64,000 nt of DNA from Physcomitrium patens (taxonomy: Eukaryota > Streptophyta > Bryopsida > Funariales > Funariaceae): contig NC_037275.1 in assembly GCF_000002425.4 (NCBI RefSeq), positions 9,038,533 to 9,102,532 of the forward strand, given 5' to 3'. Positions 2,474 to 64,000 of this stretch are shown piece after piece. Position numbers and translations under genes: made by a program. Numbering within the stretch: the stretch's first letter is position 1; each line of letters starts with the position of its first letter. The notes beneath the pieces are model-generated. The model saw only the letters and a list, made by a program, of their open reading frames with translations, was not told the DNA's origin and searched no databases.

Positions 2474-2534
2474 TGTATCCTACAAAGTCAATACATATTG
2501 GAGGTCCTTTAGAATATCACCACGTAGCCTTTAA

Positions 2535-4049: not shown

Positions 4050-4184
4050 CTTCTGTTTCTATAGATTTTATCACAGATCTTCGAATCTCAAGTTCTTATG
4101 ATTCGATATTAATGATAGTAGATTGTTTTGCTACGTGGTGATATTCTAAAGGACCTCCAATATGTATTGACTTTGTAGGATACA

Positions 4185-4741
4185 TGTCACGGACATACTC
4201 ATATAAGCTAATTACATATATAAATAGATGGAAGTAAGTAAAAGTAGGTAAAAATAAGTTAATTCTATAGTATTTAATATGAAAGCTGCTAAAAGCTTCA
4301 TAGATGCTGTTTTGACTACATAGGTGTCTTTAATTGACTTTTTGGATTAAAAGCGTGGTCAACAAGTTGGCCATGTGCCACACATATTGTTAGCTTGAAG
4401 ATCAAGCTAATTATGTAACCCACATGTAGAAAAACTTACCTTATAAGTCAAGGCATGTGTCCTACAAAGTCAACACATATTGGAGGTCCTATAGAACGTC
4501 GCCATGTAGCCACTACTTAGATAGTATATATAGAGACAAGAATGAAGCCTTCTTCACTCTTGTCAACTCCTTTCTTGTTTCTAGTCTAGTTTCAAGGGTC
4601 TCTAGTTTTCTTATCTTTTGGCAATAGCCATTCCAATTTCTCTTTCAATATACATATTTATTTATTTATATTTTATTACCTTTCTTTGACTGAAGGCTCA
4701 CTCGACTGAATTGCTTTTTCATCAAGTTCTTATCCTTGACA
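4185..4741 (+). repeat. R1 5' LTR
   Basis: Begins TGTCACGGACATAC and ends TTATCCTTGACA (TG...CA). It carries the LTR TATA-like core tagtatatatagagac near 4525. It is the same length as the 3' LTR. Confidence 0.9.
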
Positions 4742-4950
4742 GGTTGACAAGAGTATACCTACAATATCAGATTTTTGTCTAATCTTGATTAAGAATGGAT
4801 TACCCCTTTTCCTTGATAAGATATAAGCATATTAGAAGTTACAAATTACCCTCTTCTAAACTGATATTGTCCTTAGTATTTTTTTTGTTCTCAAGTTTTT
4901 TCTTCTATTTGCCTTGAGCGATATTAGACATCTTCTCTTTTCTAAGTGTT

Positions 4951-5961
4951 ATCATAGCAAAACTTGTTGAAATGAAGAGTGTAATGGCATAAATGCAAGA
5001 GCAATTAAAGGAGTTAATGCTTGTGATGCATCAATTCAATTTACCACCACAAGGAGCAACAAGATTGGCAGGAAGTGAAGATATAGATATAGTTGGAGAT
5101 GCTTCAACATCTGCACCAAATCATATTCTTGCTCCTATGGTGGAACGCCCTTCCAATGTTAGAGAACCAAGAATTGTCCTACCTGAGAAGTTTGATGGCA
5201 CTAGATCTAAGTTTCGAGGATTTATTAATCAAGTGCAACTCGTGATTGAACTTCAACCCCAAAGCTATCCAACTCCAAGATCGCAAGTTAGATTCATTGG
5301 TACGCTTCTTTCAGGTTCAGTACTATCGTGATTTTCATCTTTTCTTAAATGACGAGATCCAATATTGGATAATTTAGAGGCTTTTCTAGTAGAGTTTCGA
5401 TCCATGTATGGAAAACATGATGCAATTCGTGTTGCAACCAATAAGATCCATATTTTATGACAAGGCAATCGATCAGTAATGTTGTATGCTTCACAATTTT
5501 GACAACTTGTAACTGGTATCAAAAAAGATGATGCTGCACTTATAAGCCAATTTCTCTACGGATTACAATATGAGGTAAAAATATTAATGCTCAACTTACT
5601 TGATCCTTAAACATTGAGTCAAGAAATTGACTTTGCTGTGAAGTGCGACAATCGCCTTTTTGAATTTTGATTTGAAAATCATACAAGTGGACCTCAACAT
5701 TACTATAATTCAATGGAAATACCAATACTTCTTCAACACATACATTCGGAAGTAGAGGATATGCAAATTGATGCAGTACATTTCAAACCTCTTATTGAGC
5801 AAGAAAAGACTCATTGTCGTTAAGAAGGATTATGTTTATATTGTGGAGAACCAAAGCATACTACTCAATATTTTCCAAAGAAACGATGCAATTACAAAAT
5901 GAGGAGTATGGCTATGAAAGAAGACAATATGTCAGAAAACGAGTTTGTCCAGCTACAATAG
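4951..5961 (+). pseudogene. R1 gag pseudogene
   Basis: Structural polyprotein of the virus-like particle. The initiator ATG of the better copy (37746) is ATA here. The capsid-like block at 4993-5331 (112 codons) is open, then stops occur around 5329, 5350 and 5458. The C-terminal knuckle CLYCGEPKHTTQYF has lost its last Cys (Tyr-Phe in place of His-Cys). The gag frame ends with TAG at 5959-5961. The pol frame (-1) overlaps its end. Confidence 0.85.
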
Positions 5962-8900
5962 CAACCGTGCGGTTGGAACCTTGCACAACATCTACTAAAG
6001 GTCCTATTCTCTCTTCAGAGCCCTTTCCTTGTTTTACATTAAATTTTATTTTAGGACCTAAATATTACAAAGCCTCTGCCTTGTTAAATTCAGGAGCCTC
6101 GGCATATTTCTTAGATGAAGAATTTACTAAAAGACATAGCATATCTTTAGTAAAGAAAATTAAACCTGTTCATGTAGAAGTCATAGATGGTCGTCCATTG
6201 TCTTCTGGAGATATTACTCACAAAACCCTTCCTATAGAAGTAATAATCAAAGGTCATAATAGCTTTGTTGTATTTAATATCATTAGATCTCTCTCTAATC
6301 TAGTCATTTTAGGTTTATCGTGGTTAGAAAAATATAATCTTCAAATAGATTGGATTTCTCGAACTCTTATTTTCTCTAAAAGTATAACTAACAGTGTAGT
6401 TAATCAAGTAGAGAGTCATAAGTCCAGTTCAATTAAACCCGTATTTATAGGTGCAAAAGCTTTTTTATATGATGCTGTGAAAGAATCACCATATATTATT
6501 TATGCCACACCTGTTTCTACTGGTAGAAAGACTTCAAGTGGCATTCCAAGCCAATATCAAGAATTTCAAGATGTATTCAAAAAAAAAGAATGCGGATACA
6601 CTCCTGGAACATCGTCCCTATGATTGCTCAATTGACCTTCAAGAAGGAGCACAACCCCCATTTGGACCAATCTACAGTTTATCACAAAATGAGTTGACTG
6701 AACTCAAGGAGTATATTGAAGAAAATCTAGCCAAGAATTTCAGATGCCATTCTAAATCTCCAACAAGAGCTCCAATTCTATTTGTGAAGAAAAAAGATGG
6801 ATCATTGTAGATGTGTGTTGATTATCGAGGACTCAACAAGATTACCATCAAGAACAGATATCCACTATCTTTAATATCTGGACTTCTTAATCAACTGAAT
6901 CAAGCTAAGATCTATACAAAAATAGATCTTTGGGGAGCATATAATCTATTATGCATCAAAAAAAGAGATGAATGGAAGACTACATTTCAAACTAGGTATG
7001 GATATTTTGAATACAACGTCATGCCTTTTGAACTTACAAATGCACCAGCAGCTTTTCAACATCTAATGAATGATGTTTTTTGAGAGTTTTTGGACGATTT
7101 TGTGGTCTATTATCTAAACAACATCTTGATCTATTCTAAGAATCTAGAAGAACATAATCTTCATGTTCATCGTGTATTACAAAAATTAAGAGATGTAGGA
7201 CTCTATGCTAAGATAGAAAAGTGTGTATTCCATACTACTCAAGTCAATTTCTTAGGTTACATCATTTCAAATGATGGACTTATGATGGATCCTAAGAAAG
7301 TTCAAACTATTATAGATTGGAAGATCCCAAAAACGGTAAGAGATGTCCAATGCTTTTTGGGATTTGCCAACTACTATCGGATCTTCATCAAGGACTTCTC
7401 TTGAGTTGCAGCTCCACTTACACGTTTGACTTATAAAGACAAACTCCAATGGAATCAAGAAGCAGAAGTTGCTTTTGAATCTTTGAAGATAACATTTGTT
7501 TCTACACCAATCTTGTATCGTGTTGTTTTTTCCAAAGCATTCTTTATGGAAACAAATGCATCAGACTTTGCTTTGGGTGCAATTTTATCACAAATGGAAA
7601 TAGATGACAAACTTCATCCAGTAGCCTTTCATTCAAGAAAATTCTCAGTAGCAGAAATCAATTATGAGATCCATGACAAAGAACTTCTTACAATTTTGGA
7701 TTCTTTTCAAGAATGGCATCATTATCTCAAAGGCGCTTCCAGTCCAGTCATCATATATACGGATCACAAGAACCTCGAGTATTTTATGTCAGCATGCATA
7801 TTAAATCATTGTCAAGCTCGTTAGAGCATGACTTTATCAAGATTCAAATTCATCATCACTTATCGGCCAGAAAAACAACAAGGTTTGTCCAATGCCTTGT
7901 CTAGACGTTCTTATCTTGTACCAAAAGAAGGAGATGCAGCTTTTGAGCAACAAAGAATGGTTCTCTTGAAGCCGGAGTAATTTCATCTTCGAGCAATAAA
8001 ATCAACATTGACTGTTGATTTAACTTTTTTTAAGCAAGTCCAGTTAAGTATGTCTTCAGACCTTCTTGTTCATGATATCAAGAATAATTCTTCTAAATCT
8101 CATGATCCCTCTAAATTTGAATTCAAGAACAACCTACTCTATTTCAAAGGATGCCTATATGTTCCAGAAGGAGAAGCACATTTATGTATTCTTCAAGCTC
8201 GTCACGACTTCCCAGCAATAGGACATTTTGGATATAATAAGACTTTGGAATTGATATCTAAGGATTTTTGGTGGCCTCAAATATGGAAGGCAGTCAAAGT
8301 TTTTGTACAATCATGTAATGTTTGCTCAAGATCAAAAACTCCTCATCATCAACCTTACGGACTTTTTAAGCCATTACCCATTTCAGAACAACCATGGTCT
8401 TCTGTTTCTATGGACTTCATCATGGATCTTCTAATCTCAGGTTTTTATGACTCTATATTTGTGATAGTAGATCATATTACCAAGATGGCATATTTTGTAC
8501 CATGTACAAAATCTATCACAGGTGAAGAAATAGCTAAGCTCTTTCTTGACAATATCTATCGCTATCATGGATTACTCAAGGATATTATATCAGATAAGGG
8601 AACTCAATTTGTATCAAGATTTTGGCGAACTCTTTTCAAGATTCTAAAAGTGGATATAAAACTATCTTCGGCATTCCATCCTCAAACTGATGGACAAACG
8701 GAGCGTGTTATTCAAGTTTTGGAGCAATATTTAAGTTGTACCATTAACTACCAACAAGATGATTGGACAACTCTTTTGCCATTCGCAAAGTTTGCTTACA
8801 ATAATACAGTACATTCTTCTACAAAATAAACACCTTTCTTTGCTAATTATGGTTATCATCCATGACTTGATACTTTTGACTTTTTAAAAGTTGATAATCC

Positions 8901-43799: not shown

Positions 43800-45184
43800 T
43801 GGCTCACATGTGCATTCACTAATATCATATCTGTACCAATAAATAAGATATTCCAACTTATTTTGATGCCAACTTGAATCTAAGATTTCTTATACTTTAA
43901 ACTCTTGATTATTATCCACTTCTATAGAAAGAAGTGATATTTGTCTTCTTCGTAAAATATTCACTCTTTTATATGGCTTAAGAAAAGATATGTCAATTAT
44001 GGAATGGATCCATATAGACTTTGATAGGTATAATTGATAAGTAACAGGAATGAGTTGCTTATTAATATGAAAAGATCCAAGCCTATGATAGTCCAACTTA
44101 TCACAAAGACCAATACAGTTAATATTGCAACAAAATAACTATATCTAATCATCTATGTTGAATTGTGGTTATTCCTTACGATAGGCATCTGCATTATTTT
44201 TATGTTGTTCTTGAACTCTCTTTGACTGCGCTTTTATTGTTGCAAGTAGCTTTAATAAACAAATTGCCAAATCTTTTGTCGCATGATTATTAACTTTTGA
44301 AAAGTCAAAAGTATCAAGTCATAGATGATAACCATAATTGAAAAATAAATAAATAAATAAATCTTTTGAATGGAAGAATGTAATGAATTATTGTATGCAA
44401 ACTCTATCAATTCTAAAAGAATTATCCAATCATCTTGATGGTAGTTAATGGTGAAATTCAAATACTACTTCAAATCTTAATACACTCATTCTATTTTTCC
44501 ATCCATTTAAGGATGAAAAGCCAAAGAAAGCTTTATATCTATCTTTAGAATCTTGAAAAGAGCTCTCCAAAATCTTAATGTAAATTGAGTCTCTCTAAGT
44601 AATATAATATCTCAAGACGATCTTTGATAGAAAAAAATATTGTTAAAAAAAAGCTTAGCTATTTCTATACTTGTGATAGATATTATATATGGTACAAAAT
44701 ATGCCATCTAGATAAAACAATCTACTACTATAAATATAGAATCACACAAACCTAAGACTAAAAGATCTATGATAAAATCCATAGAAACTAAAATCCATGG
44801 TTGTTTTAGAATAGATAAATGCTAAAGAAGTCCATAAATTCAATAGCCAAGAGTTTTGAATCTTAAACAAATATCACATGATTGTACAAAATCTTTGATT
44901 GCCTTTCATATTTGAAGCCACCAAAAATCTCTTAATATTAGTTCCAAAGTTTTTTTATATCCAAAATGTCCAGATGCTAGAAAGTCATAACAAGTTTGAA
45001 GAACATGTAATTGTATTCTATCTTTTGAAATGTGTAGTTGTCCTTTGAAATAGAATAGGTTGTTCTTGAATTCAAATTTTGAAATATCATGAAACTTAGA
45101 AGAATTATTCTTGATAATATAGACAAAGAGATCAAAAGATATACTTGATGAAATTTTCTTGACAAAGATTGAATTAACAATCAA
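43800..45184 (-). pseudogene. R4 integrase and chromodomain remnant
   Basis: Minus-strand integrase. 45184-44906 keeps the zinc-finger N-terminus (SGHFGYKKTLELILRDFWW); 44461-44252 and 44096-43890 keep the C-terminal part (VTYQLYLSKS, FLKPYKRVNILRRRQ) and the entry to the chromodomain. Many stops and frameshifts are present. Confidence 0.8.
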
Positions 45185-45189
45185 TGTTG

Positions 45190-45600
45190 ATTTTATTACT
45201 CAAAAGTAAAAATGCTCTGGCTTCAAAAAAAATTATTCATTGTTGATCAAAAGATGCATTTCTTTCTTTTAGTACAAGATAAGAATATTTAGAAAAGAGT
45301 TTTGACAAATCTTGATGTTTTTTGAATTGACAGGTAATCTTGATAAAGATATGTTCTATCGAGCTTTGCAATAATTCAAAATATGTACTAGCATGAAGTA
45401 CTTGAGGTTCTTGTGATTTATATACATAGTGATTGGACTCAAGGGGCCTTCTAGACTATGATGCCATTTTTAAAATGAATCCATGATTGCAAAGAGATTT
45501 TTATTATGGATTTCAAAATTGATCTTTATAATTGAAATATTTTTGGAATAGAAAGCTACTAGATAAGATATGTCATTTGCTTCTATTTGTGATAATATAG
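45190..45600 (-). pseudogene. R4 RNase H remnant, minus-strand copy
   Basis: Minus-strand RNase H (decayed INFEIHNK, LFAIMDSF, LEGPLSPITMYT). The stretch 45340-45600 is repeated in inverted orientation at 46140-46420 and shares derived changes with it, such as LEGP for the LEGT/KGAS of other copies. Confidence 0.75.
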
Positions 45601-47279: not shown

Positions 47280-47733
47280 GTTGGCTTCTTAAATCAATGG
47301 CATTGGCTTACCACCCTTTGAATTGGCGACTTCCTCCTCTGCTATATCTTCGTCGTCTGACTTGGTGTTTAAAGGTTCTCTATCCAAACGTACCATTAGA
47401 TCTTCATTCAACAAACCCAATTCCTGTACTACAGACTCAAGATGGACAATTCAATTATCGCACTCTTTCAACATCTTCTATCATTCTTCTGTCGGTTTCA
47501 AAGGTATCTCTGAAGGTATTCTTGCTGAAACTGGCATATTGGTCTGCATTAAATTATTGGCCTTCTTTTCTAATGAGGCTAGTTTAGTGTGCAACATCAC
47601 AACCTCTACTTGCAACCGCTCTTGTCATTCCTTCCAATTGGTCTCCATCTTTGCTTTCTCAGACATCATGTTCGCCACCTTCTCCTTTTCCACCATCTAC
47701 TTCTCCTTAACCCTAATCTCTACCAGCGCTGTC
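47280..47733 (-). pseudogene. Coiled-coil pseudogene fragment, minus strand
   Basis: The minus-strand frame from about 47733 down to a TAA near 47300 reads as a charged helix despite five stops: KEKVANMMSEKAKMETNWKE, QERLQVEVVMLHTKLASLEK, then VQELGLLNEDLMVRL and a Glu/Asp-rich end (SDDEDIAEEEV). Leu/Met at heptad-like spacing suggests a coiled coil. It is cut at its 5' side by the LTR starting at 47730. Family unknown; it may be gag-like or a host gene piece. Confidence 0.5.
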
Positions 47734-48963
47734 ATGTTGTAACACGAATATACTGTGAAAATATAAAGAAAGGAGACTTTTATTAATGTTCAGTTACCTC
47801 AAATATTAGGAGCAACGACCAACTCCAGTACAAATACTGAGTGGCCAGGTTCAGTCACCCCGTTACAATCAGACGGGGCATACTAAAATGCTCCATTTGA
47901 TTCCAATAACGGGAGTCAGCAGGAAGGGAAAGGACCAATTCATATGACGGATGAGCCTGGTTTAAAGAGCCAATTGGATCCAATTTCAAGAATCCAATCC
48001 GGATCACCTTAACCAATATGAGACCTGAATTGGGCGGACAACCCAATGCAGTCTAATTATGGAAAAATCCAGGTCTTACTACGGGCCTCAGCCAATCTGA
48101 CATGAAGGACCAATTTGATCCAATTACTGGAACATCCGGGTCTTACTACTGGACTCTTAGCCAATATGAGACCTGATTTGGTTGGACGAATCAATGTGGT
48201 CCCGATTACGAGGTTTCGTTTTTATTTTAGGCTGTCTTGTTCTCTGTGCCATTTCAGGGAACATTCTTTTCGGTAAAAGGATCTCTTAAAGGTAAAAATG
48301 GAGGAGAAAGCTCTGACGGTGGGAGCCAATTCCGGATCCAAGACGAAGAATTGAAGAAATTCAGAATTAAGGTTAAGAAATGAGAGGGGAGAGAAGAAGT
48401 TTTGGAGAGTTTTTGAAGAATCAGAGAGCTAACTTCATGCTTCGGGTGGGGAAAAAAGACAGAGAATTGGATTTTTTTTCTTCATAGGATTTTGGGAAGA
48501 CTGAGACAATCGTTGCTGAAGTCAATGTTGTAATGGTGAATCGGGATTTTTAATGAAGTGGGTTTGATTACTCTTGACTGTTTTGTGAAATCGAGTTACG
48601 TCTGTGATTGAAGAATTAAAAGGGTGTCTATAGGATTGAGTATGCGGAGTGAATGAAATTTATTGGGTTAATCTAACAAGACAGTCAGTGGATACAAGAT
48701 CATAAGTACAAAGCGGTATCGGAGATTAGCAGTTTGGGTTGTTCGAGGTTCTCTGTAACATCTAGAGACCTATCGGTTGGGGCAAAAAAGACTTTGACAA
48801 GCAGTCGAAGGGCATCCGTATAGATTTACGGTGTATTCTTGCAGTCGTTTATATTCCAGTAGTCAAAAACTGATAGACTGCTTGACTATTGGCGAATCTC
48901 TATACTACCTTCTATAGCTAGACGCCTGGCGTGTTCTCGAGCAGGAAAGCACGTAATACGAGA
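47730..48963 (+). repeat. E1 5' LTR
   Basis: Begins TGTCATGTTGTAACACG; its end (GTAATACGAGA) is inferred by comparison with the other family E LTRs. It is about 130 bases shorter than the E2 LTRs, partly because it has fewer of the tandem units carrying ccaatatgagacctg. Confidence 0.85.
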
Positions 48964-48967
48964 AAAG

Positions 48968-48980
48968 TGGTGAACCTGAC
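48968..48980 (+). promoter_or_regulatory. Candidate primer binding site of E1
   Basis: tggtgaacctgac begins with TGG (complement of a tRNA 3' CCA) four bases after the LTR. The mirror site of E2 is 61210-61222. I cannot name the tRNA. Confidence 0.45.
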
Positions 48981-49033
48981 GTGAAAGCTTGAGGTGGAAG
49001 GTATTGGATTTCGGTTGATTTTATCTTTATTTT

Positions 49034-50518
49034 ATGGAAAACGAAAATAAAAATTTTGAAGGATTTTTGGGAGGAGTTTCTGGTGGGGAGTCTTCTAAAG
49101 GACAAGGTATGTACATGGATCCATCTATTGCTAGTATGTTTCAAGCTTTCTCATTATCAATGCAGCAACAACAAAGCAATGATCGAAAGGAAGCTTTGGC
49201 AACCAAAGCATTGCAAGCAGTGGTCAATAAAATTGATCAATTTGATAGAAGAAATATTTCAAGGTATTTAAGATGTTATGTTCGTGAAATGGAATTAAAT
49301 CGGGTTTCTGAGAAGAAAATGGTTGAATTATTTGGACTTGCCACGATATCGGAGATAAGAGACCACATTACATCGATTACGGATCATTATGGGAATTCAT
49401 GGGAGGTTTTTTTATATGCATTGAAAGACGAATATTTCTTGGAAGATGCTGATCGCGTTACTAAGAAGCTGTTTCTGGAATGGATTGAATGGCCTAATAA
49501 GAATTTGTAAGCAACAGAGCTACTAAGGGAATTTGAGAGGCAGTACTCTCAATTATCGAAGGTAGAAAAATTGACATTGGAGCCGAACAAAGTTGATCTA
49601 TTTCTTCAAGCTGTTGATGGAGAATTGTAAGGGAAATTAGAACTCCTTCTTGAAGACAAAGAAGAAGATGAAGGATTGACAATAAAGTAGAAGAACGTTG
49701 AAGATGCGGTGGGATTGCTTACAAAAAGAGAAAGGAGGAAGGATAGGAGCAATATCCCGAAAACAGTACAAGCATCCAAAGCTCCAGTACGTACAACACC
49801 ACCAACAATGCCTACAGTTCAACCTTCGACATCCTTATCAAAGAAAGCAGATATAGGGATGGAAGAAATTATACGAGGAATGCGAGATCTTCAAATCAAA
49901 TTAGTAAGACTTGAAGAGAATACTTCTACAAACAATTCGAAGAATGTTTCAAAACAAGAATATGTACAAAGATGCATTTGGTGTGATGATGCTTCACACA
50001 CTAGAAAAGATTGCAATGAATTTAATAATATGATACGACAGGGAATTATTTGCTGGAAAGATGGGAAGATAGCATTGAAAGATAGAGAGGATCTTCTTCA
50101 AACCAATTTTGGCAAGGGAGGAATGAGAGCATTGGTTCAAGATTACCTAAAAGAGCATGAAACAGCAGCACAAGAAAGTGCAAGTTATGGTGCTAGAGTA
50201 GATGATGAAATTGGTGGAAGTACGGAAACTAGCAAGTTTTGGGCTTTTGCCGTTTATACAATGCAAGAAGGGAAATTACCTCGAGAAGCGTTATTGAGGA
50301 CTGCAGCTACAATACAAGGTAGAACAGGTTGGGGGGATCCTATTGAGTCTCTTTCAGTTCATGCATATATTGCTAAGAGCCAACATGAAGCTTTGATGGA
50401 AGAAAAGAAACGAGGAACTTTTGATGATACTAGAGAAGGAAATTCTTCTAAGAGGCAAACTCGAGGAGACAAGGCTCGGGAGGCAGCTTCACAAGAATTT
50501 CTTGTAAAGGATACCTGA
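49034..50518 (+). pseudogene. E1 gag
   Basis: Starts ATG 49034 (MENENKNFEGFLGG). The capsid-type region includes FDRRNISRYLRCYVREMEL and DHYGNSWEVFLYALKDEYF. Stops TAA 49508, TAA 49628, TAG 49688 interrupt the frame, which reopens at 49709-50518 with a CCHC knuckle (CIWCDDASHTRKDC) near 49977. The stop TGA 50516-50518 is followed in frame by the protease part. Every one of these stops is also present in E2. Confidence 0.85.
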
Positions 50519-50524
50519 GCATCA

Positions 50525-51409
50525 TTGGAAGAAAAAACGAAGGAGACAAAAGATAAGGGCAAATCAATTGCTTATAAGCTACTTTCTAACATTGAAGCGG
50601 CAACAAATTTGAAAGGGATGTTGGAAGAACGTATATTAAACGCTAAGGTAGAATTCACATTGAAAGAAGTCTTGGGAATAACAAAGAAGGAGTTTCATGG
50701 TGTTATCATTGACAGCATTAAGCGAAAGAGGCAATTAATGGGTGAAACGGGAATGAGTCATGCTATTGATGCAAGAATATATAAAGTAGAAGAAGAAGAG
50801 GTTGATATTGATTACAAGCAACCAACAAATGAAAAGAATGGGTATAATCAACGAGTACATTTCGAAGATTATAGTGACAAGGAAATGGAAACTTTGAGTC
50901 ATTATACTCGAAAGCATTGGGCAAGGGCAACTACTGAGGTATTGGTGAAAGTAGGAGATATAGATGAACCAATAGTTGCTTTACTCGACCATGGTTCTGA
51001 AATAAATCTCATGTCTAAAGATCTTTATAAGAAGCAAAAATGGCCAATTGATATGGAACATGGATGGCCAATACGAGCAACTAATAACACACGGGGCGAA
51101 TTATATGGAGCTTGTCCAGATGTCAAAATTTGGATTGGGGATGTTGCGACGGAGCAACATTTCTTTGTTCAAGATACAACGTCTTATCCGTTGATTTTAG
51201 GACAACCTTATATTACGGCAACACGGATGGAAACAAAAGTACTTAACGATGGTTCTGCTTATGCAAGGGTACGGAGCGAGGATGGGAGGAAAGCTATACA
51301 AATTCTAACAATACCTCCTAACCATGAATGGAATCGAGATAGGTTGAGGGAGAAACCATTGCCAAAGATTGTTGAAGGATTTAAGGATTTTGGGGAGGTA
51401 CCATTGTAA
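50525..51409 (+). pseudogene. E1 protease region (gag frame)
   Basis: 294 codons in the gag frame. The retropepsin signature is ALLDHGSEINLMS (GAC at 50987), with His in place of the usual Ser/Thr of D-S/T-G. YPLILGQPYITATRMETKVL forms the second half. Both copies here have DHG, so it may be a lineage trait rather than damage. The frame ends TAA 51407-51409 and pol continues in -1. Confidence 0.8.
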
Positions 51410-51414
51410 AGCGA

Positions 51415-52947
51415 GATTATGGAGGTACAAAAGAGGAGGTACTCTCGCGAGATGAAGGTGCCTTTGATGCGAGTTTTATTGGTATATTGGAGAATGGAAA
51501 TATTATGTATAAGAAAGTTGATGATTTTAAAAGAAAAGAAAGAAAAAGATTATATGATATTGAAGGACAGTTATGGAAGTTAGGTACATTGCAAGATGAT
51601 GAGAGGATTTTAGGTGTTTATGAAGAAAATGGACTGGAAGATTCATTGGAATTGATTACATCTATTGGGTTAGGGGATAATGATAAGATTGTTGAGATTC
51701 ATTCAAGAGAGGTTTATACCATGCTTGAATCTTTTCAAGCACGAGAAGTCACTATAGAGACGAGATATAAAATGGCAGATAAGAAGGTAAAGCCTGTTGT
51801 CGGACCATTACCAAAAGATTCTAAAGAACAAATAGGAGAAGCACCAAAAGAAGCAAGTTTAAGAGTTCCAATGAGTATTGGACATCTGTTTACTAAAGAA
51901 ACTTTTGAAGAATTGAAGATTGGTTCTGATGGTTCTTTATTGCCGGAGGAAATTACTTGCTTCAAAAGGATGTTGGCTAAACAAGGTAGATCGTTTGCTT
52001 TTGAATCTCATGAAATTGGGTGTGTGGATCCAAATATTATAACACCTATGGTTATCTTCATTGTACCACATGTACCTTGGAATCTAAGACCAATTCCAGA
52101 ACCGAGGGCACATTTACCTAAATTTGTTAAACTATTAAAAGAAAAGATAAAGATGAAAATATTGGAACCCTCGTTTGTGCCGTATTCTAGTCGATGGTTT
52201 ACGGTACCTAAGAAGAATGGGTCACTACGGTTTACTCAAGATATGCAACCGGTGAATGTAGTAACTGTCAGGAATGCAAGAATTGGGCCTATTGTAGATG
52301 AATTTGTTGAGGCATTTGCTGGAAGGGCGATCTATTCAATGGATGACTTGTATTCAGGTTATGATCAATTTCAACTTACCGAAGGAAGTAGAGATATGAC
52401 AACAATGAGGACACCACTTGGATTGGTTAGAATGTGCACTCTTCCTCAAGGCGCGACCAACTCAGTTGCGCATATGATCAATGAGATGAATAAGGTATTG
52501 AGAGATTTTATTCCGGAAAAGACTATATCTTTTCTGGATGATGTTTCTATAAAAGGGTGCAGAGAAGGAGACAAGGGTGAAACTTTAGATATGAGGGGGT
52601 GTCGCAAATATGTTGTTGATCATATACAAGATTGTGAAAAGATTTTAACTCGGCTTGGAGAAGTTCATCTTACATTATCGGGTATGAAGTCCGTATTTGG
52701 AGTACGAGAGGTTGTGATTGTTGGACATTTATGTGGAACTTATGGAAGAAAATCAGATCCAACTAAAGTTGATGCAATTGGAAGGATAAAAGAGGATTGT
52801 GATTCTTTAACAGAGGTTCGCAGGTTTTTAGGTGCATGTGTATTTTATTGAATCTGGATCCCTCATTATGCTCACATAGCAGATCCATTATATGAACTGT
52901 TACGCAAAAGCTACCGATTTAAATGGGAAGAAAGGCATATTCAGGTA
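51415..52947 (+). pseudogene. E1 reverse transcriptase
   Basis: In the -1 frame relative to gag-protease. Open to TGA 52849-52851 (shared with E2), after which the same frame continues. RT blocks: VPYSSRWFTVPKKNGSLRF, RAIYSMDDLYSGYDQF, RTPLGLVRMCTLPQGATNS and the catalytic loop SFLDDVSIKG (52531-52542; FLDD where most Ty3 elements have YLDD/YIDD). A Cys/Arg-rich insertion follows the loop (MRGCRKYVVDHIQDCEKIL). Confidence 0.85.
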
Positions 52948-53875
52948 ATGCAAAGATTGAAGAAATTATTGATGTCACTTCCAATATTGAGGAAGGTTGA
53001 TTATAAGTGCAATAGACCAGTGATTCTTATTGTGGACGCTAGTCCAATTGCCATTGGATGGACTGTGGATCAAGATGATTCAAATGGGAATAGATTTGCA
53101 GTTCGATTTGGGGCTAAAGTTTTAAGTATTCGTCAGCGTGCATATTTGCAAGTCAAAAGAGAACTTTGGGGAGTCGTTTCGGCTATGAAAGCTGAAAAGG
53201 ACTATTTGATTGGGGCAGTAGTAGTAATTAAAACAGATTGCTTGCCATTGCTTGGAATGATTATTAACTGTTCAACGCCAGATATTGCAATGTTGAGATG
53301 GATTGCTTATATTAAGTCACTAAATCTAGAATTTAAGCATATTATTGGGAAAGACAATTTAATAGCAGACATGCTATCTCGAGCAAGATACGAGAAGGAG
53401 GATGAAATGGTTGAAGACATTGATGACGTCGGATTGAAATTCTATTCAATATCAAATCTCAACAGAGAAGACAAGCTATTTCTTGAAGAATCTTATGAAG
53501 GAGAATTATTGGATATTGGTCATTACTTGAATACCTTGACTAAGCAGGGGAATTGGTCTACAGAAAAATTCAAACAAATAAGAAAAAAAACATATGGATT
53601 TTTACTTCGAGATGGATTCTTATGGAAGAGACCAAAGAAAGGAATTGGGGTGCCACAACGAGTGATAGGTGAAAAGGAAGAAAAAATAAAATTATTAAAG
53701 GAGTTTCATGATAGTTTATGGGCAGGGCATAGAGGAATTTGGGCTACTTTTGCTAAACTCAAGGAACGATATTGGTGGAAAAATATGTATCGAGATGTGC
53801 TCTCATTTGGAGAGTCGTGTGAAATCTGTCAATGGTATTCTAATATCCGACATCGAGATGGTTTTCATCCTATGT
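52948..53875 (+). pseudogene. E1 RNase H and integrase N-terminus, cut by E2
   Basis: RNase H (VILIVDASPIAIGWTVDQDD, LPLLGMIINCSTPDIAMLR, DNLIADMLSRARY) is followed by the integrase zinc finger (EFHDSLWAGHRGIWATF, CEICQWYSN). The frame is cut after the codons for DGFHP at the E2 insertion and resumes at 62595. Confidence 0.88.
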
Positions 53876-55242
53876 TGTCGTATTACGTACTTTTCTGCCC
53901 GAGAACGCGCCGGGCGTCTGGCTGTAGAAGGTAGTATGGAGATTCGCCAATAGTCAAGCAGTCTATCAGTTTTTGACTGCTGGAATATAAACGACTACAA
54001 GAACATATCGTAAATCTATACGGATGCCCTTTGACTGCTTGTCGAAGTCCTTTTTGCCCCAGCCGGTAGGTCTCTAGACGTTACAGAAAACCCCGAACAA
54101 GCCAATCTGCTAATCTTTGATACCGCTTTGTACTTACGATCTTGTATCCACTGACTGTCTTGTTAGATTAATCCAATAAATTTCATTCACTCCGCATACT
54201 CAATCCTATAGATACCCTTTTAATTCTTCAATCATAGACGTAAGTCGATTTCACAAAACAGTCAAGAGTAATCAAACCCACTTCATTAAAAATCCCGATT
54301 CACCATTACAACACTGACTTCATCAACAAATCCCTCAGTCTTCTCAAAACTCTATGAAGAAGAAAAATCCAATTTTCCATCTTTTCTTCCCCCACCCCAA
54401 AGTATGAAGCTCCTCTTCAATCCCCTTGATCTTCAAAAACCTCCAATGAAACCGAACTAGTAACTTTGCAAAGAGCTTGAAGCTAGCTCTTTGATCCAAA
54501 ATCCCCCCCCCCCCTTGATCTAAAAAAAAACCTCCCCTAAAAACTTATTCTCCTCCTAACCTTTTCCTTTGAATTTCTTCAATCTTCCGTCTTGGATCTG
54601 AAATTGGTTCCCGCCGTCAGAGCTTAGATCCAAAATTGGCTCTCGCCATCAAAGCTTTCTCCTCCGTTTTTACCTTTATAAGATCCATTTACCAAAAACA
54701 ATGTTCCCTGAAATAGAGAATAGGATAGCCTGAAACAGAATCGAAACCTCGTACTTGGGTCTACATTGAGTCGTCCAACCAATTCAGGTCTCATATTGGA
54801 TAAGAGTCCAGTAGTAAGACCCAGATTTTCCCGTAATTAGACTGCATTGGGTTGCCCAACCAATGTAGGTCTCATATTGGGTAAGATGCCCGTAGTAACC
54901 TGGATGTTCCCGTAATGAGACTACATTGGGTTGCCCGACCAATGCAGGTCTCATATTGGGTAAAAGGACCCGGATTGGATTCTCGAAATTGGATCCAATT
55001 GGCTCTTCAAATCAGGTTTACTCGTCGAGTGAATTAATCCTTTCTCTTCTTGCTGACTTCCGTTATTGGAATCAAATGGAGCATTTCAGTATGACCCGGC
55101 TGACTGCAACGGGGTGACTGAACCTGACTACTCAGTATTTGTACTGGAGTTGGTCGTTGCTCCCAATATTCGAGGTAACTGAACATTAATAAAAGTCCCT
55201 TTTCTTTATATTTTCACGGTATACTCGTGTTACAACACGACA
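53876..55242 (-). repeat. E2 3' LTR
   Basis: On the minus strand TGTCGTGTTGTAACACG to GTAATACGACA. Contains about three tandem units of 75-80 bases with aggtctcatattgg at about 54765-54975 and a C run near 54505. It differs from the E2 5' LTR by roughly 6% over the first 340 bases. Confidence 0.9.
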
Positions 55243-55256
55243 TCCACCCCCTCTGA
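55243..55256 (-). promoter_or_regulatory. E2 polypurine tract
   Basis: On the minus strand agagggggtgga directly precedes the TG of the 3' LTR. The E1 counterpart is at 63658-63670. Confidence 0.7.
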
Positions 55257-55304
55257 ACCTGTGCATCCTCCGGTATGCACCAATTTACCCAATTACTGTT
55301 TGAT

Positions 55305-57338
55305 TCAGAATATATCCTCTACGTCTTTGCCCAATTCATCATCGTCACATTCATTATCCAAATCACTTTCATCTTCTTGCTGCAGAATCTCTATACCTTC
55401 ATTAAGGTTTTCCATATTCATCTCCGCGTCTCTTCGTTTAAATATTTTTACTCGCTTCCCTGCAATTGGTATTTTCAATTTTGTACCATCTAACTCCCGT
55501 AACGAGTAAGTCGCATTATCATGAACAATTGTTACCACATATGGTCCAAACCAACGTTTTGAAAATTTTCGCAAAGTACTATGTTGATTATCCAGACTAT
55601 TGTCATAAACAAGTACCCAGTTACCTTCCTCGATTGCTTTTGGTCTCAATCGATGTTGCTTATCGAATTGCACCTTATTTTGTAACCTTGCTATTTTTAA
55701 CCTTCTCAATGCTATCTGGACATCTTCCGTTCTTTGCTCCAATTGTCGAATCCTAATAGCTAGAAGTTCTTCTCTTGTCAATCCAGCTTCCCATGGTAGC
55801 ATACTCCAAGTAAGTACCTTTTCTTCAATCGGCATAATTGGTTTTTGACCTGTCATAAGTTCTACTAGCATATATCCTGTCACCAAACTATGTGTTGTTC
55901 GATCAGCCCATAATGCAAATGACAAAAGCCGTGGCCACTCTTTAACTTTCCCATTACAAGCTTTAACTAATGCTTTCACAATAGGTGGGTGACCGCGTTC
56001 GCTTTTTGCATTCCCTTCTGGATTATAAGTAGCAGTCAGAGATAGTTTAACTCCACATCTTTCAAAGAACTTACGAGCTTCTTGTGCATTTAATTCTCCA
56101 CAATCTGCAGTGATTTTTCCTACGCATCCGTAGCGGCAAATGACATCTTCAAGCAAAAATCTACAAATCTCCTCTGTAGATTTTGTCCTAAATGCTCTTC
56201 CTTCTACTTGATTTGATAAATCTTCACGAGCTAAAACCAAATATCTCATCAGCCATAATCCAACTGGCATAATAACCAAATCAACAATCCATTTAAAATA
56301 AATAGCCAGAGGATACGTAGGATGAAGACCATCTTGATGTCGGATATTAGAATACGATTGACAGATTTCACATGACTCTACAAATGAGAGCACATCACGA
56401 TACATATTTTTCCACCAATATCGTTCCTTGAGTTTAGCAAAAGTAGCCCAAATTCCTCTATGCCCTGCCCATAAACTATCATGAAACTCCTTTAATAATT
56501 TTATTTTTTCTTCCTTTTCACCTATCACTCGTTGTGGCACCCCAATTCCTTTCTTTGGTCTCTTCCATAAGAATCCATCTCGAAGTAAAAATCCATATGT
56601 TTTTTTTCTTATTTGTTTGAATTTTTCTGTAGACCAATTCCCCTGCTTAGTCAAGGTATTCAAGTAATGACCAATATCCAATAATTCTCCTTCATAAGAT
56701 TCTTCAAGAAATAGCTTGTCTTCTCTGTTGAGATTTGATATTGAATAGAATTTCAATCCGACGTCATCAATGTCTTCAACCATTTCATCCTCCCTCTCAT
56801 ATCTTGCTCGAGATAGCATGTCTGCTATTAAATTGTCTTTCCCAATAATATGCTTAAATTCTAGATTTAGTGACTTAATATAAGCAATCGATCTCAACAT
56901 TGCAATATCTGGCGTTGAACAGTTAATAATCATTCCAAGCAATGGCAAGCAATCTGTTTTAATTACTACTACTGCCCCAATCAAATAGTCCTTTTCAGCT
57001 TTCATAGCCGAAACGACTCCCCAAAGTTCTCTTTTGACTTGCAAATATGCACGCTGACGAATACTTAAAACTTTAGCCCCAAATCGAACTGCAAATCTAT
57101 TCCCATTTGAATCATCTTGATCCACAGTCCATCCAATGGCAATTGGACTAGCGTCCACAATAAGAATCACTGGTCTATTGCACTTATAATCAACCTTCCT
57201 CAATATTGGAAGTGACATCAATAATTTCTTCAATCTTTGCATTACCTGAATATGCCTTTCTTCCCATTTAAATCGGTAGCTTTTGCGTAACAGTTCATAT
57301 AATGGATCTGCTATGTGAGCATAATGAGGGATCCAGAT
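55305..57338 (-). CDS. E2 RNase H and integrase (open frame, 645+ codons)
   Basis: The longest intact frame of family E (57242-55305). RNase H VDASPIAIGW, then HHCC zinc finger (H-x3-H in DSLWAGHRG with CEICQSYSN), integrase core with Asp in FKWIVDLVIMP, Asp in ITADCGELNA and Glu in YNPEGNAKSERG, then a GPY/F-type module (KRWFGPYVVTIVHDN, LREL.GTKLKIPIAGKRVKIF) and an acidic tail (EDESDLDNECDDDEL). No chromodomain. It is the distal part of pol: the frame is open upstream to the TGA at 57339, so it would need readthrough of that stop. Confidence 0.85.
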   Translation of the reverse strand: MWIPHYAHIADPLYELLRKSYRFKWEERHIQVMQRLKKLLMSLPILRKVDYKCNRPVILIVDASPIAIGWTVDQDDSNGNRFAVRFGAKVLSIRQRAYLQVKRELWGVVSAMKAEKDYLIGAVVVIKTDCLPLLGMIINCSTPDIAMLRSIAYIKSLNLEFKHIIGKDNLIADMLSRARYEREDEMVEDIDDVGLKFYSISNLNREDKLFLEESYEGELLDIGHYLNTLTKQGNWSTEKFKQIRKKTYGFLLRDGFLWKRPKKGIGVPQRVIGEKEEKIKLLKEFHDSLWAGHRGIWATFAKLKERYWWKNMYRDVLSFVESCEICQSYSNIRHQDGLHPTYPLAIYFKWIVDLVIMPVGLWLMRYLVLAREDLSNQVEGRAFRTKSTEEICRFLLEDVICRYGCVGKITADCGELNAQEARKFFERCGVKLSLTATYNPEGNAKSERGHPPIVKALVKACNGKVKEWPRLLSFALWADRTTHSLVTGYMLVELMTGQKPIMPIEEKVLTWSMLPWEAGLTREELLAIRIRQLEQRTEDVQIALRRLKIARLQNKVQFDKQHRLRPKAIEEGNWVLVYDNSLDNQHSTLRKFSKRWFGPYVVTIVHDNATYSLRELDGTKLKIPIAGKRVKIFKRRDAEMNMENLNEGIEILQQEDESDLDNECDDDELGKDVEDIF

Positions 57339-58770
57339 TCAATAAAATACACATGCACCTAAAAACCTGCGAACCTCTGTTAAAGAATCACAATCCTCTT
57401 TTATCCTTCCAATTGCATCAACTTTAGTTGGATCTGATTTTCTTCCATAAGTTCCACATAAATGTCCAACAATCACAACCTCTCGTACTCCAAATACGGA
57501 CTTCATACCCGATAATGTAAGATGAACTTCTCCAAGCCGAGTTAAAATCTTTTCACAATCTTGTATATGATCAACAACATATTTGCGACACCCCCTCATA
57601 TCTAAAGTTTCACCCTTGTCTCCTTCTCTGCACCCTTTTATAGAAACATCATCCAGAAAAGATATAGTCTTTTCCGGAATAAAATCTCTCAATACCTTAT
57701 TCATCTCATTGATCATATGCGCAACTGAGTTGGTCGCGCCTTGAGGAAGAGTGCACATTCTAACCAATCCAAGTGGTGTCCTCATTGTTGTCATATCTCT
57801 ACTTCCTTCGGTAAGTTGAAATTGATCATAACCTGAATACAAGTCATCCATTGAATAGATCGCCCTTCCAGCAAATGCCTCAACAAATTCATCTACAATA
57901 GGCCCAATTCTTGCATTCCTGACAGTTACTACATTCACCGGTTGCATATCTTGAGTAAACCGTAGTGACCCATTCTTCTTAGGTACCGTAAACCATCGAC
58001 TAGAATACGGCACAAACGAGGGTTCCAATATTTTCATCTTTATCTTTTCTTTTAATAGTTTAACAAATTTAGGTAAATGTGCCCTCGGTTCTGGAATTGG
58101 TCTTAGATTCCAAGGTACATGTGGTACAATGAAGATAACCATAGGTGTTATAATATTTGGATCCACACACCCAATTTCATGAGATTCAAAAGCAAACGAT
58201 CTACCTTGTTTAGCCAACATCCTTTTGAAGCAAGTAATTTCCTCCGGCAATAAAGAACCATCAGAACCAATCTTCAATTCTTCAAAAGTTTCTTTAGTAA
58301 ACAGATGTCCAATACTCATTGGAACTCTTAAACTTGCTTCTTTTGGTGCTTCTCCTATTTGTTCTTTAGAATCTTCTGGTAATGGTCCGACAACAGGCTT
58401 TACCTTCTTATCTGCCATTTTATATCTCGTCTCTATAGTGACTTCTCGTGCTTGAAAAGATTCAAGCATGGTATAAACCTCTCTTGAATGAATCTCAACA
58501 ATCTTATCATTATCCCCTAACCCAATAGATGTAATCAATTCCAATGAATCTTCCAGTCCATTTTCTTCATAAACACCTAAAATCCTCTCATCATCTTGCA
58601 ATGTACCTAACTTCCATAACTGTCCTTCAATATCATATAATCTTTTTCTTTCTTTTCTTTTAAAATCATCAACTTTCTTATACATAATATTTCCATTCTC
58701 CAATATACCAATAAAACTCGCATCAAAGGCACCTTCATCTCGCGAGAGTACCTCCTCTTTTGTACCTCCA
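57339..58770 (-). pseudogene. E2 reverse transcriptase
   Basis: Mirror of the E1 RT frame, 454 codons open at 58703-57339, with FLDDVSIKG near 57650. The RT differs from E1 by a single residue (Glu for Lys in PLPEDSKEQ). It ends at the same TGA. Confidence 0.88.
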
Positions 58771-58780
58771 TAATCTCGCT

Positions 58781-59665
58781 TTACAATGGTACCTCCCCAA
58801 AATCCTTAAATCCTTCAACAATCTTTGGCAATGGTTTCTCCCTCAACCTATCTCGATTCCATTCATGGTTAGGAGGTACTGTTAGAATTTGTATAGCTTT
58901 CCTCCCATCCTCGCTCCGTACCCTTGCATAAGCAGAACCATCGTTAAGTACTTTTGTTTCCATCCGTGTTGCCGTAATATAAGGTTGTCCTAAAATCAAC
59001 GGATAAGACGTTGTATCTTGAACAAAGAAATGTTGCTCCGTCGCAACATCCCCAATCCAAATTTTGACATCTGGACAAGCTCCATATAATTCGCCCCGTG
59101 TGTTATTAGTTGCTCGTATTGGCCATCCATGTTCCATATCAATTGGCCATTTTTGCTTCTTATAAAGATCTTTAGACATGAGATTTATTTCAGAACCATG
59201 GTCGAGTAAAGCAACTATTGGTTCATCTATATCTCCTACTTTCACCAATACCTCAGTAGTTGCCCTTGCCCAATGCTTTCGAGTATAATGACTCAAAGTT
59301 TCCATTTCCTTGTCACTATAATCTTCGAAATGTACTCGTTGATTATACCCATTCTTTTCATTTGTTGGTTGCTTGTAATCAATATCAACCTCTTCTTCTT
59401 CTACTTTATATATTCTTGCATCAATAGCATGACTCATTCCCGTTTCACCCATTAATTGCCTCTTTCGCTTAATGCTGTCAATGATAACACCATGAAACTC
59501 CTTCTTTGTTATTCCCAAGACTTCTTTCAATGTGAATTCTACCTTAGCGTTTAATATACGTTCTTCCAACATCCCTTTCAAATTTGTTGCCGCTTCAATG
59601 TTAGAAAGTAGCTTATAAGCAATTGATTTGCCCTTATCTTTTGTCTCCTTCGTTTTTTCTTCCAA
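58781..59665 (-). pseudogene. E2 protease region
   Basis: Mirror of 50525-51409, one residue different (TVPPN for TIPPN). DHGSEIN signature near 59200. Confidence 0.85.
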
Positions 59666-59671
59666 TGATGC

Positions 59672-61156
59672 TCAGGTATCCTTTACAAGAAATTCTTGTG
59701 AAGCTGCCTCCCGAGCCTTGTCTCCTCGAGTTTGCCTCTTAGAAGAATTTCCTTCTCTAGTATCATCAAAAGTTCCTCGTTTCTTTTCTTCCATCAAAGC
59801 TTCATGTTGGCTCTTAGCAATATATGCATGAACTGAAAGAGACTCAATAGGATCCCCCCAACCTGTTCTACCTTGTATTGTAGCTGCAGTCCTCAATAAC
59901 GCTTCTCGAGGTAATTTCCCTTCTTGCATTGTATAAACGGCAAAAGCCCAAAACTTGCTAGTTTCCGTACTTCCACCAATTTCATCATCTACTCTAGCAC
60001 CATAACTTGCACTTTCTTGTGCTGCTGTTTCATGCTCTTTTAGGTAATCTTGAACCAATGCTCTCATTCCTCCCTTGCCAAAATTGGTTTGAAGAAGATC
60101 CTCTCTATCTTTCAATGCTATCTTCCCATCTTTCCAGCAAATAATTCCCTGTCGTATCATATTATTAAATTCATTGCAATCTTTTCTAGTGTGTGAAGCA
60201 TCATCACACCAAATGCATCTTTGTACATATTCTTGTTTTGAAACATTCTTCGAATTGTTTGTAGAAGTATTCTCTTCAAGTCTTACTAATTTGATTTGAA
60301 GATCTCGCATTCCTCGTATAATTTCTTCCATCCCTATATCTGCTTTCTTTGATAAGGATGTCGAAGGTTGAACTGTAGGCATTGTTGGTGGTGTTGTACG
60401 TACTGGAGCTTTGGATGCTTGTACTGTTTTCGGGATATTGCTCCTATCCTTCCTCCTTTCTCTTTTTGTAAGCAATCCCACCGCATCTTCAACGTTCTTC
60501 TACTTTATTGTCAATCCTTCATCTTCTTCTTTGTCTTCAAGAAGGAGTTCTAATTTCCCTTACAATTCTCCATCAACAGCTTGAAGAAATAGATCAACTT
60601 TGTTCGGCTCCAATGTCAATTTTTCTACCTTCGATAATTGAGAGTACTGCCTCTCAAATTCCCTTAGTAGCTCTGTTGCTTACAAATTCTTATTAGGCCA
60701 TTCAATCCATTCCAGAAACAGCTTCTTAGTAACGCGATCAGCATCTTCCAAGAAATATTCGTCTTTCAATGCATATAAAAAAACCTCCCATGAATTCCCA
60801 TAATGATCCGTAATCGATGTAATGTGGTCTCTTATCTCCGATATCGTGGCAAGTCCAAATAATTCAACCATTTTCTTCTCAGAAACCCGATTTAATTCCA
60901 TTTCACGAACATAACATCTTAAATACCTTGAAATATTTCTTCTATCAAATTGATCAATTTTATTGACCACTGCTTGCAATGCTTTGGTTGCCAAAGCTTC
61001 CTTTCGATCATTGCTTTGTTGTTGCTGCATTGATAATGAGAAAGCTTGAAACATACTAGCAATAGATGGATCCATGTACATACCTTGTCCTTTAGAAGAC
61101 TCCCCACCAGAAACTCCTCCCAAAAATCCTTCAAAATTTTTATTTTCGTTTTCCAT
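59672..61156 (-). pseudogene. E2 gag
   Basis: Mirror of 49034-50518 with the same ATG, the same stops and an identical translation in its two long open parts (61156-60680 and 60481-59672), including the CCHC knuckle near 60210. Confidence 0.88.
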
Positions 61157-61226
61157 AAAATAAAGATAAAATCAACCGAAATCCAATACCTTCCACCTCA
61201 AGCTTTCACGTCAGGTTCACCACTTT

Positions 61227-62594
61227 TCTCGTATTACGTGCTTTCCTGCTCGAGAACACGCCAGGCGTCTAGCTGTAGAAGGTAGTATAGAGATTCGCCA
61301 ATAGTCAAGCAGTCTATCAGTTTTTGACTACTGGAATATAAACGACTGCAAGAATACATCGTAAATCTATACGGATGCCCTTCGACTGCTTGTCAAAGTC
61401 TTTTTTGCCCCAACCGATAGGTCTCTAGATGTTACAGAGAACCTCGAACAACCCAAACTGCTAATCTCCGATATCACTTTGTACTTACGATCTTGTATCC
61501 ACTGACTGTCTTGTTAGATTAACCCAATAAATTTCATTCACTCCGCATACTCAATCCTATAGACACCCTTTTAATTCTTCAATCACAGACGTAACTCGAT
61601 TTCACAAAACAGTCAAGAGTAATCAAACCCACTTCATTAAAAATCCCGATTCACCATTACAACATTGACTTCATCAACAATTGCCTCAGTCTTCCCAAAA
61701 CTCTATGAAGAAGAAAAATCCAATTTTCCGTCTTTTCTTCCCCGACCCGAAGCATGAAGCTCCTCTTCAATCTCCTTGATCTTCAAATACCTCCAATGAA
61801 ACCGAACTAGTAACCTTGCAAAGAGCTTGAAGCTAGCTCTTCGATCTAAGAAAAGCCCCCCCCCCCGTGATCTGAAAAAAAACCTCCCATAAAAACTTAT
61901 TCTCCGCCTAACCTTTTCCTCTGAATTTCTTCAATCTTCCATCTTGGATCCGGAATTGGCTCCTGCCGTCAGAGCTTAGATCCAAAATTGGCTCTCGCTA
62001 TCAAAGCTTTCTCCTCCGTTTTTACCTTTAAGAGATCCATTTACAAAAAACAACGTTCCCTGAAATAGAAAATAGGACAGCCTGAAACAGAATCGAAACC
62101 CCGTACTCGGATCCACATTGAGTCACCCGACCAATTCAGGTCTCATATTGGATAAGAGTCCAGTAGTAAGACCCGGATTTTCCCGTAATTAGACTGCATT
62201 GGGTTGCCCAACCAATACAGGTCTCATATTGGATAAGATGCCTGTAGTAACCTGGATGTTCCCGTAATGAGACTACATTGGGTTGTCCGACCAATGCAGG
62301 TCTCATATTGGGTAAGAGGACCCGGATTGGATTCTCAAAATTGGATCCAATTGGCTCTTCGAACCAGGCTCACCCGTGGCGTGAATTGGTCCTTTCTCTT
62401 CCTGCTGACTACCGTTATTGGAATCGAACGGAGCATTTGAGTATGCCCCGGCTGAGTGCAACGGGGTGATTGAACCTGACTACTCAGTATTTGCACTGGA
62501 GTTGGTCGTTGCTCCCAATATTCGAGGTAACTGAACATTTATAAAAGTCTCCTTTCTTTATATTTTCACGGTATACTCGTGTTACAACACGACA
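61227..62594 (-). repeat. E2 5' LTR
   Basis: 1368 bases, TGTCGTGTTG to TACGAGA. Its gag-proximal 440 bases are almost identical to the E1 5' LTR (about 48525-48963), while the rest is clearly more diverged. Confidence 0.9.
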
Positions 62595-63608
62595 ACGTAT
62601 CCTCTGGCTATTCATTTTAAATGGGTTGTTGATTTGGTTATTATGCCAGTTGGATTATGGCTGATGAGATATTTGGTTTTAGCTCGTGAAGATTTATCAA
62701 ATCAAGTAGAAGGAAGAGCATTGAGGACAAAATCTACAGAGGAGATTTGTAGATTTTTGCTTGAAGATGTCATTTGCCGCTACGAATGCGTAGGAAAAAT
62801 CATTGCAGATCGTGGAGAATTAAATGCACAAGAAGCTCGTAAGTTCTTTGAAAGATGTGGAGTTAAACTATCTCTGACTGCTACTTATAATCCAGAAGGG
62901 AATGCAAAAAGCGAACGCGGTCACCCACCTATTGTGAAAGCATTAGTTAAAGCTTGTAATGGAAAAATTAAAGAGTGGCCACGGCTTTTGTCATTTGCAT
63001 TATGGGCTGATCGAACAACACATAGTTTGGTGATAGGATATATGCCAGTAGAACTTATGACAGGTCAAAAACCAATTATGCCGATTGAAGAAAAGGTACT
63101 TACTTGGAGTATGCTACCATGGGAAGATCGATTGACAAGAGAAGAATTTCTGGCTATTAGGATTCGACAATTGGAGCAAAGAATGGAAGATGTCCAGATA
63201 GCATTGGGAAGGTTAAAAATAGTAAGGTTATAAAATAAGGTGCGATTCGATAAGCAACATCGATTGAGACTAAAAGCAATCGAGGAAGGTGACTGGGTAC
63301 TTATTTATGACAATAGTCTGGATAATCAACATAGTACTTTGCGAAAATTTTCAAAACGTTGGTTTGGACCATATGTGGTAACAATTGTTCATGATAATGC
63401 GAATTACTCGTTACGGGAGTTAGATGGTACAAAATTGAAAATACCAATTGCAGGGAAGCGAGTAAAAATATTTAAACGAAGAGATGCGGAGATGAATATG
63501 GAAAACCTTAATGAAGGTATAGAGATTCCGCAGCAAGAAGATGAAAGTGATTTGGATAATGAAGGTGACGAAGACGAACTGGATAAAGACGTAGATGATA
63601 TATTTTAA
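62595..63608 (+). pseudogene. E1 integrase core and C-terminus, distal part
   Basis: Continues the E1 integrase after E2: catalytic Asp in WVVDLVIMPV and in IIADRGELNA, Glu in NPEGNAKSERG, GPY/F module KRWFGPYVVTI, acidic tail ending DDIF. A stop at 63231-63233 replaces the Gln codon of E2. About 13 of 199 residues differ from E2 in the first part, far more than upstream of the E2 insertion. Confidence 0.88.
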
Positions 63609-63670
63609 ATCAAACAGTAATTGGGTAAATTGGTGCATATCGGGGGATGCATAGGTTCGGAGGGAGTGGA

Positions 63671-64000
63671 TGTCGTATTGTAATACGAGTATATCGTGAA
63701 AATATAAAGAAAGGAGACTTTTATTAATGTTCAGTTACCTCAAATATTGGGAGCAACGACCAACTTCAGTACAAATACTGAGTAGCCAGGTTCAGTCACC
63801 CCGTTACAATCAGCCGGGGCATACTAAAATGCTCCATTTGATTCCAATAACGGAAGTCAGCAGGAAGGGAAAGGACCAATTCATATGACGGATGAGCTTG
63901 GTTTGAAGAGCCAATTGGATCCAATTTCAAGAATCCAATCCGGGTCCTTTTACCCAATATGAGACCTGAATTGGTCGAGCAACCCAATGCAATCTAATTA
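63671..64000 (+). repeat. E1 3' LTR (cut by window end)
   Basis: TGTCGTATTGTAATACG after the purine tract ggagggagtgga. The first 330 bases differ from the E1 5' LTR by about 6%. Confidence 0.92.

Follow-up and report, generated by a model that had tools for sequence, protein, structure and literature searches.

Gene conversion in plant LTR retrotransposons has been described by Jedlicka et al. 2020 (PMC7251063), with tracts that were sought in LTRs and are mostly 100-1000 bp long. In Physcomitrella, concerted evolution of tandem genes has been proposed, with gene conversion suggested (PMC3045890), and the species is included in a survey of nested plant LTR retrotransposons (PMC6911290); TE families of this moss have been described as well (PMC7466625, PMC11899658). 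Homologous recombination is reported as frequent in Physcomitrella (PMC13120521), and such repair is called infrequent in haploid bryophytes (PMC6739443). In the palindromes of willow sex chromosomes, conversion keeps the near-identical inverted arms similar (PMC7023750). A search of the open-licence literature by title and abstract opening, combining conversion or concerted evolution with plant elements, palindromes, nesting, orientation or distance, gave no match.

It is instructive to compare these systems with two copies, E1 and E2, of one Ty3/gypsy LTR retrotransposon in Physcomitrium patens, E2 being nested in E1 on the opposite strand. As in the plant elements of PMC7251063, we most likely see homology-driven copying after insertion between LTR-element sequences, a process described there within as well as between elements; unlike the tracts sought there in LTRs, that of E1 and E2 is about 5.3 kb long, includes part of the LTR together with the body, and joins nested elements. 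As in PMC3045890, neighbouring repeats of Physcomitrella are more similar than expected, but the passage in question concerns genes and comes without tract borders or distance dependence. The inverted arms resemble the willow palindromes, although here they are the product of a nested insertion, and nearness seems to matter, not the palindrome. Nested gypsy elements in the same kind of genome are the subject of PMC6911290, which treats insertion sites and not homogenised bodies.

Two nested elements and a bounded tract of near-identity

The window, i.e. the whole stretch of 64,000 nucleotides that was analysed, corresponds to C23:9038533-9102532, and the genome-wide searches covered 470,438,890 bases in 101 contigs. 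The reading frames of E1 and E2 contain PF00078 (reverse transcriptase), PF17917/PF17919 (RNase H) and PF17921 (integrase zinc-binding), all over their cut-offs, whereas the integrase core PF00665 remains under its cut-off (21.2 vs 32.6 bits). This Ty3/gypsy domain order between LTRs, together with short target-site duplications, identifies both as Ty3/gypsy LTR retrotransposons. The LTRs of E2 are 1,366 and 1,367 bp long, and its insertion point lies in the integrase region of E1. The features are listed in Table 1.

Table 1. Positions of the elements, the near-identical tract and a second inverted pair in the window
Feature	Position	Strand	Remarks
E1, whole	47730-64935 (extends past window end)	+	flanked by GCGC and GCGC
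E1 5' part	47730..53875	+	5' LTR 47730-48961, then gag/pol to within integrase
E1 3' part	62595..64000 in window (on to 64935)	+	vs E2: 3.6% in 62595-63670, 9.4% in 63671-64000
E1 target-site duplication, 4 bp	GCGC at 47726-47729		partner just beyond E1 end at 64935, outside window
E2, complete nested element, 8,719 bp	53876..62594	-	5' LTR 61229-62594, 3' LTR 53876-55242
E2 target-site duplication	ATGT 53872..53875 left, ACGT 62595-62598 right	.	differs at one base of 4 bp
Near-identical tract, E1 arm	48517..53792	+	core 48916-53299, 2 differences
Near-identical tract, E2 arm	56398..61673	-	core 56891-61274
Final 83 bp of E1 ahead of E2	53793..53875	+	diverged again, 7/83 (8.4%)
Other window pair, different gypsy-like family	1-2619 / 4049-6660	inverted	99.2% alike

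A sequence-only reading of the window had claimed that E1 and E2 pair base for base (x with 110190-x) without indels and with few residue changes. This is borne out, as the pairing is gap-free from 48448 to 53875 and only 4 of 1,460 codons in the five arm reading frames differ in their residue up to 53792. According to a two-changepoint fit the tract holds 10 differences in 5,276 bp, the core accounting for its two over 4,384 bp, while to the left of the tract E1 and E2 diverge by 11.7% (91/775). The fit improves the log-likelihood by 166, the maximum in 40 shuffles being 12.7. The outer (left) border falls within the 5' LTRs rather than at the element edge, and the right border is 83 bp before the E2 insertion point. 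The arms thus do not end exactly at the insertion, as had been proposed; a sharp step in divergence is indeed present, but at 53792 and not at 53875.

Beyond the insertion point divergence is higher, as the same reading had stated: 14 of 200 codons differ over 62634-63233, and the nucleotide differences amount to 39/1076 (3.6%) in the internal part and 31/330 (9.4%) in the LTR portion inside the window. A tenfold jump at the insertion is nevertheless too strong a description, since divergence from E2 begins at 2% (8/400) in 62595-62994, which is lower than in any of 19 other copies over element positions 6301-6600. Perhaps this low value reflects a closer relationship of the two elements, or an exchange that was older or only partial. 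Nor does pairing between the arms become impossible past the insertion, because 62595-64000 still forms an inverted repeat with E2 54913-56318. What ends at the insertion point is continuous homology, because there E2 interrupts E1.

Both arms continue into copy-specific sequence on either side. The near-identity is confined to a limited region in which two paralogous copies are more alike than elsewhere, the mark of a conversion tract. The residual differences in the tract are nine transitions and one transversion, without indels (transitions make up 81% in the family), and they are clustered: five of the ten fall in LTR positions 1107-1320 and three in 53300-53396, which makes one single conversion event doubtful. 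An assembly artefact would also produce near-identical arms, whether because both had been built from the reads of one arm or because the assembled molecule was a fold-back. Such inverted arms are difficult to assemble and there are gaps nearby (an N run just left of the window and 100 N at 98595-98694), but the copy-specific sequence at either side of both arms, the family-like share of transitions and the lack of indels speak against it. Moreover, reads would be easily separable if the true divergence were 4-5%, and in other clusters divergence is graded with distance. An artefact of this kind therefore appears unlikely.

The sequence-only reading had also offered an inverted duplication, i.e. 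the copying of a single element after its insertion. The inverted orientation and near-identity of E1 and E2 would agree with it, and the other inverted pair in the window has a common flank of about 140 bp. For E1 and E2, however, the target-site duplications differ, each element having its own 4-bp duplication (that of E2 inside E1, that of E1 outside), homology does not extend into the flanks, and the outer ends of the two elements have diverged by 9-12%. We consider this explanation very improbable.

LTR evidence on the timing of the probable exchange

The two LTRs of one insertion are identical at the time of insertion. Outside the tract (LTR positions 1-852) the LTR pair of E2 now differs at 63/850 positions (7.4%) and that of E1 at 45/698 (6.4%), so both are old insertions. 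Inside the tract the LTRs are related differently. At 11 sites the two 5' LTRs share one base and the two 3' LTRs another, and one site (1236) sorts by element although it is inside the tract; outside the tract only 2 sites group 5' with 5', 33 sort by element and 3 are crosswise. The tract base at all 11 sites is present in 1-6 of 19 other copies, hence these bases are not all unique mutations. Even so, the 11-site pattern requires either an exchange between the two 5' LTRs or parallel changes. Taken together, the diverged LTR pairs and the common 5'-LTR bases date the identity to after both copies were in place.

As a control with direct repeats, the within-element LTR pairs of the 19 fetched copies have about 0.6-7% mismatches (one pair is at 90% identity with gaps), values in which age and possible short conversions are mixed.

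The same observations bear on the idea that E1 and E2 are recent siblings whose bodies were near-identical at insertion. The internal 3' part of E1 is closer to E2 (3.6%) than are the 19 other fetched copies (mean 5.7%, lowest 4.8%), and closer kinship or an older exchange between the two is possible. Recent insertion is nonetheless hard to reconcile with LTR pairs that started identical and differ by 7.4% and 6.4%, or with 11 bases common to both 5' LTRs and found in neither 3' LTR, and we give this idea hardly any credence. The intrachromosomal gene conversion proposed by the sequence-only reading agrees with both points: two elements that are old by their LTRs have common 5'-LTR bases in the tract that are absent from both 3' LTRs.

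Comparison with the 19 other copies gives a similar contrast along the element. Over element positions 1233-5618 a base is common to E1 and E2 only in 59 of 4,383 columns and private to one of them in 1 and 0, whereas the internal region beyond the insertion has 7 shared columns against 11 and 9 private ones, of 1,073. In the genome-wide search the two arms scored 9,651 and 9,574 bits and the next full match 8,446 (best 28 of 8,603 candidates scored), the 26 other scored copies having 94-95% identity. Selective constraint on the body was considered and rejected, given that other fetched copies are 3.4-6.9% from E2 in 300-bp windows over element positions 1501-6000.

The direction of the transfer is less clear. 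Comparison with the 3' LTRs gave 16 sites that match E1 and 14 that match E2, and both shared-base sites that are rare elsewhere match E1; the nearest relatives among the 19 other copies carry no signal on the donor. From these two sites we would lean weakly towards E1 as the donor.

We therefore read the tract as the result of non-allelic gene conversion after insertion, with similar local homogenisation seeming to act on neighbouring copies, a reading to which we assign a probability of about 0.83. Long ago E2 inserted into E1 in reverse orientation. Much later one of the elements would have been repaired by homologous recombination templated by the other, and about 5.3 kb copied across, presumably by synthesis-dependent strand annealing or a related pathway without crossover. 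Alternatively, repeated conversions may have kept both alike, the number of events being conjectural. Copying would have stopped near the end of continuous homology, that is, just before the E2 insertion on one side and within the indel-bearing 5' LTRs on the other.

Similarity between neighbouring copies

A comparison of 230 pairs (from the 19 fetched copies, E2, and E1 as two pieces that were not set against each other) gave only one other tract longer than about 1.1 kb. It joins two copies on opposite strands of C19 (C19:11512430-11521230 and C19:11469021-11477821) that are 41.7 kb apart, and has 25 differences in 7,257 bp, with 7.1% divergence outside. The 5' flanks of these copies are unrelated, their own LTR pairs have diverged by 7.5% and 5.3%, and 23 LTR sites group the 5' LTRs while 3 sort by element. 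When 6,001 bases of one copy were searched, its partner was the top genome match (10,742 vs 9,718 bits for the next; best 25 of 8,593 candidates scored).

The other inverted pair in the window (Table 1) is less simple. Beyond the N run its left copy continues for 1,413 bp at 99.4% identity and drops to 96.0% in the final 1,028 bp, which include the 3' LTR; the LTRs of the right copy are 90.6% alike. Because of the common flank of about 140 bp, a duplication followed by later change is possible for this pair. The N run ends at the first base of the window, and the left copy reaches to about -9600, with a further copy nested in it at about -5844. In both this pair and that of C19 the homogenised stretch comprises the 5' LTR and the body, and the likeness is lost close to where the 3' LTR begins.

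A stretch of 120 kb surrounding the locus, with 3,254 N included, contains three self-matches of at least 400 bp and at least 99% identity, all inverted and from two pairs, and the top direct self-match is at 97.5%. Another inverted pair, 44625-45335 / 72306-73014 (the second beyond the window), has 97.0% identity over 711 bp at a distance of about 27 kb.

With up to 2 mismatches allowed, a 36-mer from the family matches the genome at 2,230 sites. From the first 100 listed, all exact, 24 copies were sampled and 400 bp of the reverse-transcriptase region compared; the listed matches contain 12 adjacent pairs less than 15 kb apart, one of which, C1:20335603/20347051 (11.4 kb, inverted), was left out. 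The 24 copies include 14 pairs closer than 15 kb, 10 of them inverted and 4 direct, in 8 clusters; all 14 have divergences of 0-2.01%, and E1 and E2 have no difference over the same 400 bp. Unlinked or more distant pairs have a median of 5.25% (n=970; the 24 and 21 earlier copies); some unlinked copies are equally close, since 7 of these 970 pairs do not exceed 2.01%. With permuted positions none of 20,000 runs came down to the observed mean of 0.94%, the lowest being 3.48%, and for 19 of 19 copies with a neighbour within 15 kb the closest relative within the 24 is that neighbour. Genome-wide, the neighbour is the best match for three of four queries (best 40 of 2,544-2,916 candidates scored per query), with scores against the next of 718 vs 655, 686 vs 659 and, by a thin margin, 680 vs 675 bits. 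For the fourth query the neighbour is absent from the best 40 scored; it aligns with a gap and 5 differences in 367 columns.

The likeness fades by about 30 kb, as seen in four pairs: three direct ones differ by 2.27% at 19.6 kb, 3.25% at 28.4 kb and 4.75% at 40.3 kb, and an inverted one by 4.75% at 31.5 kb. The C19 pair, at about 42 kb, is the one exception (0.0% over 400 bp). Judged from these comparisons, homogenisation of this local kind seems to affect neighbouring members of the family beyond E1 and E2. The comparison covers 400 bp per copy in these clusters, which may have arisen by local duplication instead of conversion.

The sequence-only reading had placed the conversion between the arms of a palindrome. 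If the palindrome were the driving factor, conversion would be promoted by a hairpin or cruciform and not by nearness. E1/E2, the C19 pair and the other near-identical window pair are all inverted, as are all three self-matches mentioned above, and the listed adjacent matches less than 15 kb apart are 10 inverted to 2 direct. However, all four direct pairs within 15 kb are also alike (0-1.5%), and the members of the C19 pair are separated by 42 kb. The advance prediction of a palindrome-only model, namely that inverted neighbours are much more alike than direct ones, failed. The evidence from direct orientation is thinner than the count suggests, because two of the four direct pairs have an inverted copy between them in the cluster and one (7.3 kb) is spaced like an LTR-sharing tandem. 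Conversion itself is supported, while the palindrome as its cause is weakened by the direct-orientation neighbours, few as these are, and the geometric argument at the insertion was wrong. The palindrome is probably not the cause of the likeness of E1 and E2, and conversion driven by such a structure is in our view rather improbable.

The inverted excess among close adjacent matches (first 100, exact, on C1 and C2) is suggestive only: the inverted to direct ratio is 10:2 below 15 kb (P 0.04), 8:4 at 15-50 kb, 14:14 at 50-200 kb and 28:18 beyond. Recombination may remove direct pairs that lie close together; alternatively, elements that insert into another copy may do so preferentially on the opposite strand.

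Meaning for the family and its host

Gene conversion between elements is a known process, and the interesting part here is its local, family-wide reach. We incline, if only slightly, to the view that neighbouring copies of this large retrotransposon family evolve in concert over about 10-30 kb in both orientations, so that a copy is most closely related to the one beside it rather than to its sibling by transposition. In clustered copies the element bodies are unreliable for trees or dating. Physcomitrium patens is a host with efficient gene targeting, and the link between targeting and natural ectopic repair therefore becomes testable. If the local effect is genome-wide, thousands of natural repeat pairs could serve to measure how ectopic gene conversion depends on distance and orientation, and their divergence, plotted against both, could be read as a map of ectopic repair in vivo. 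If neighbouring copies do evolve in concert in this way, the choice of nearby templates in a plant dominated by its haploid phase would overwrite insertion history throughout the genome.
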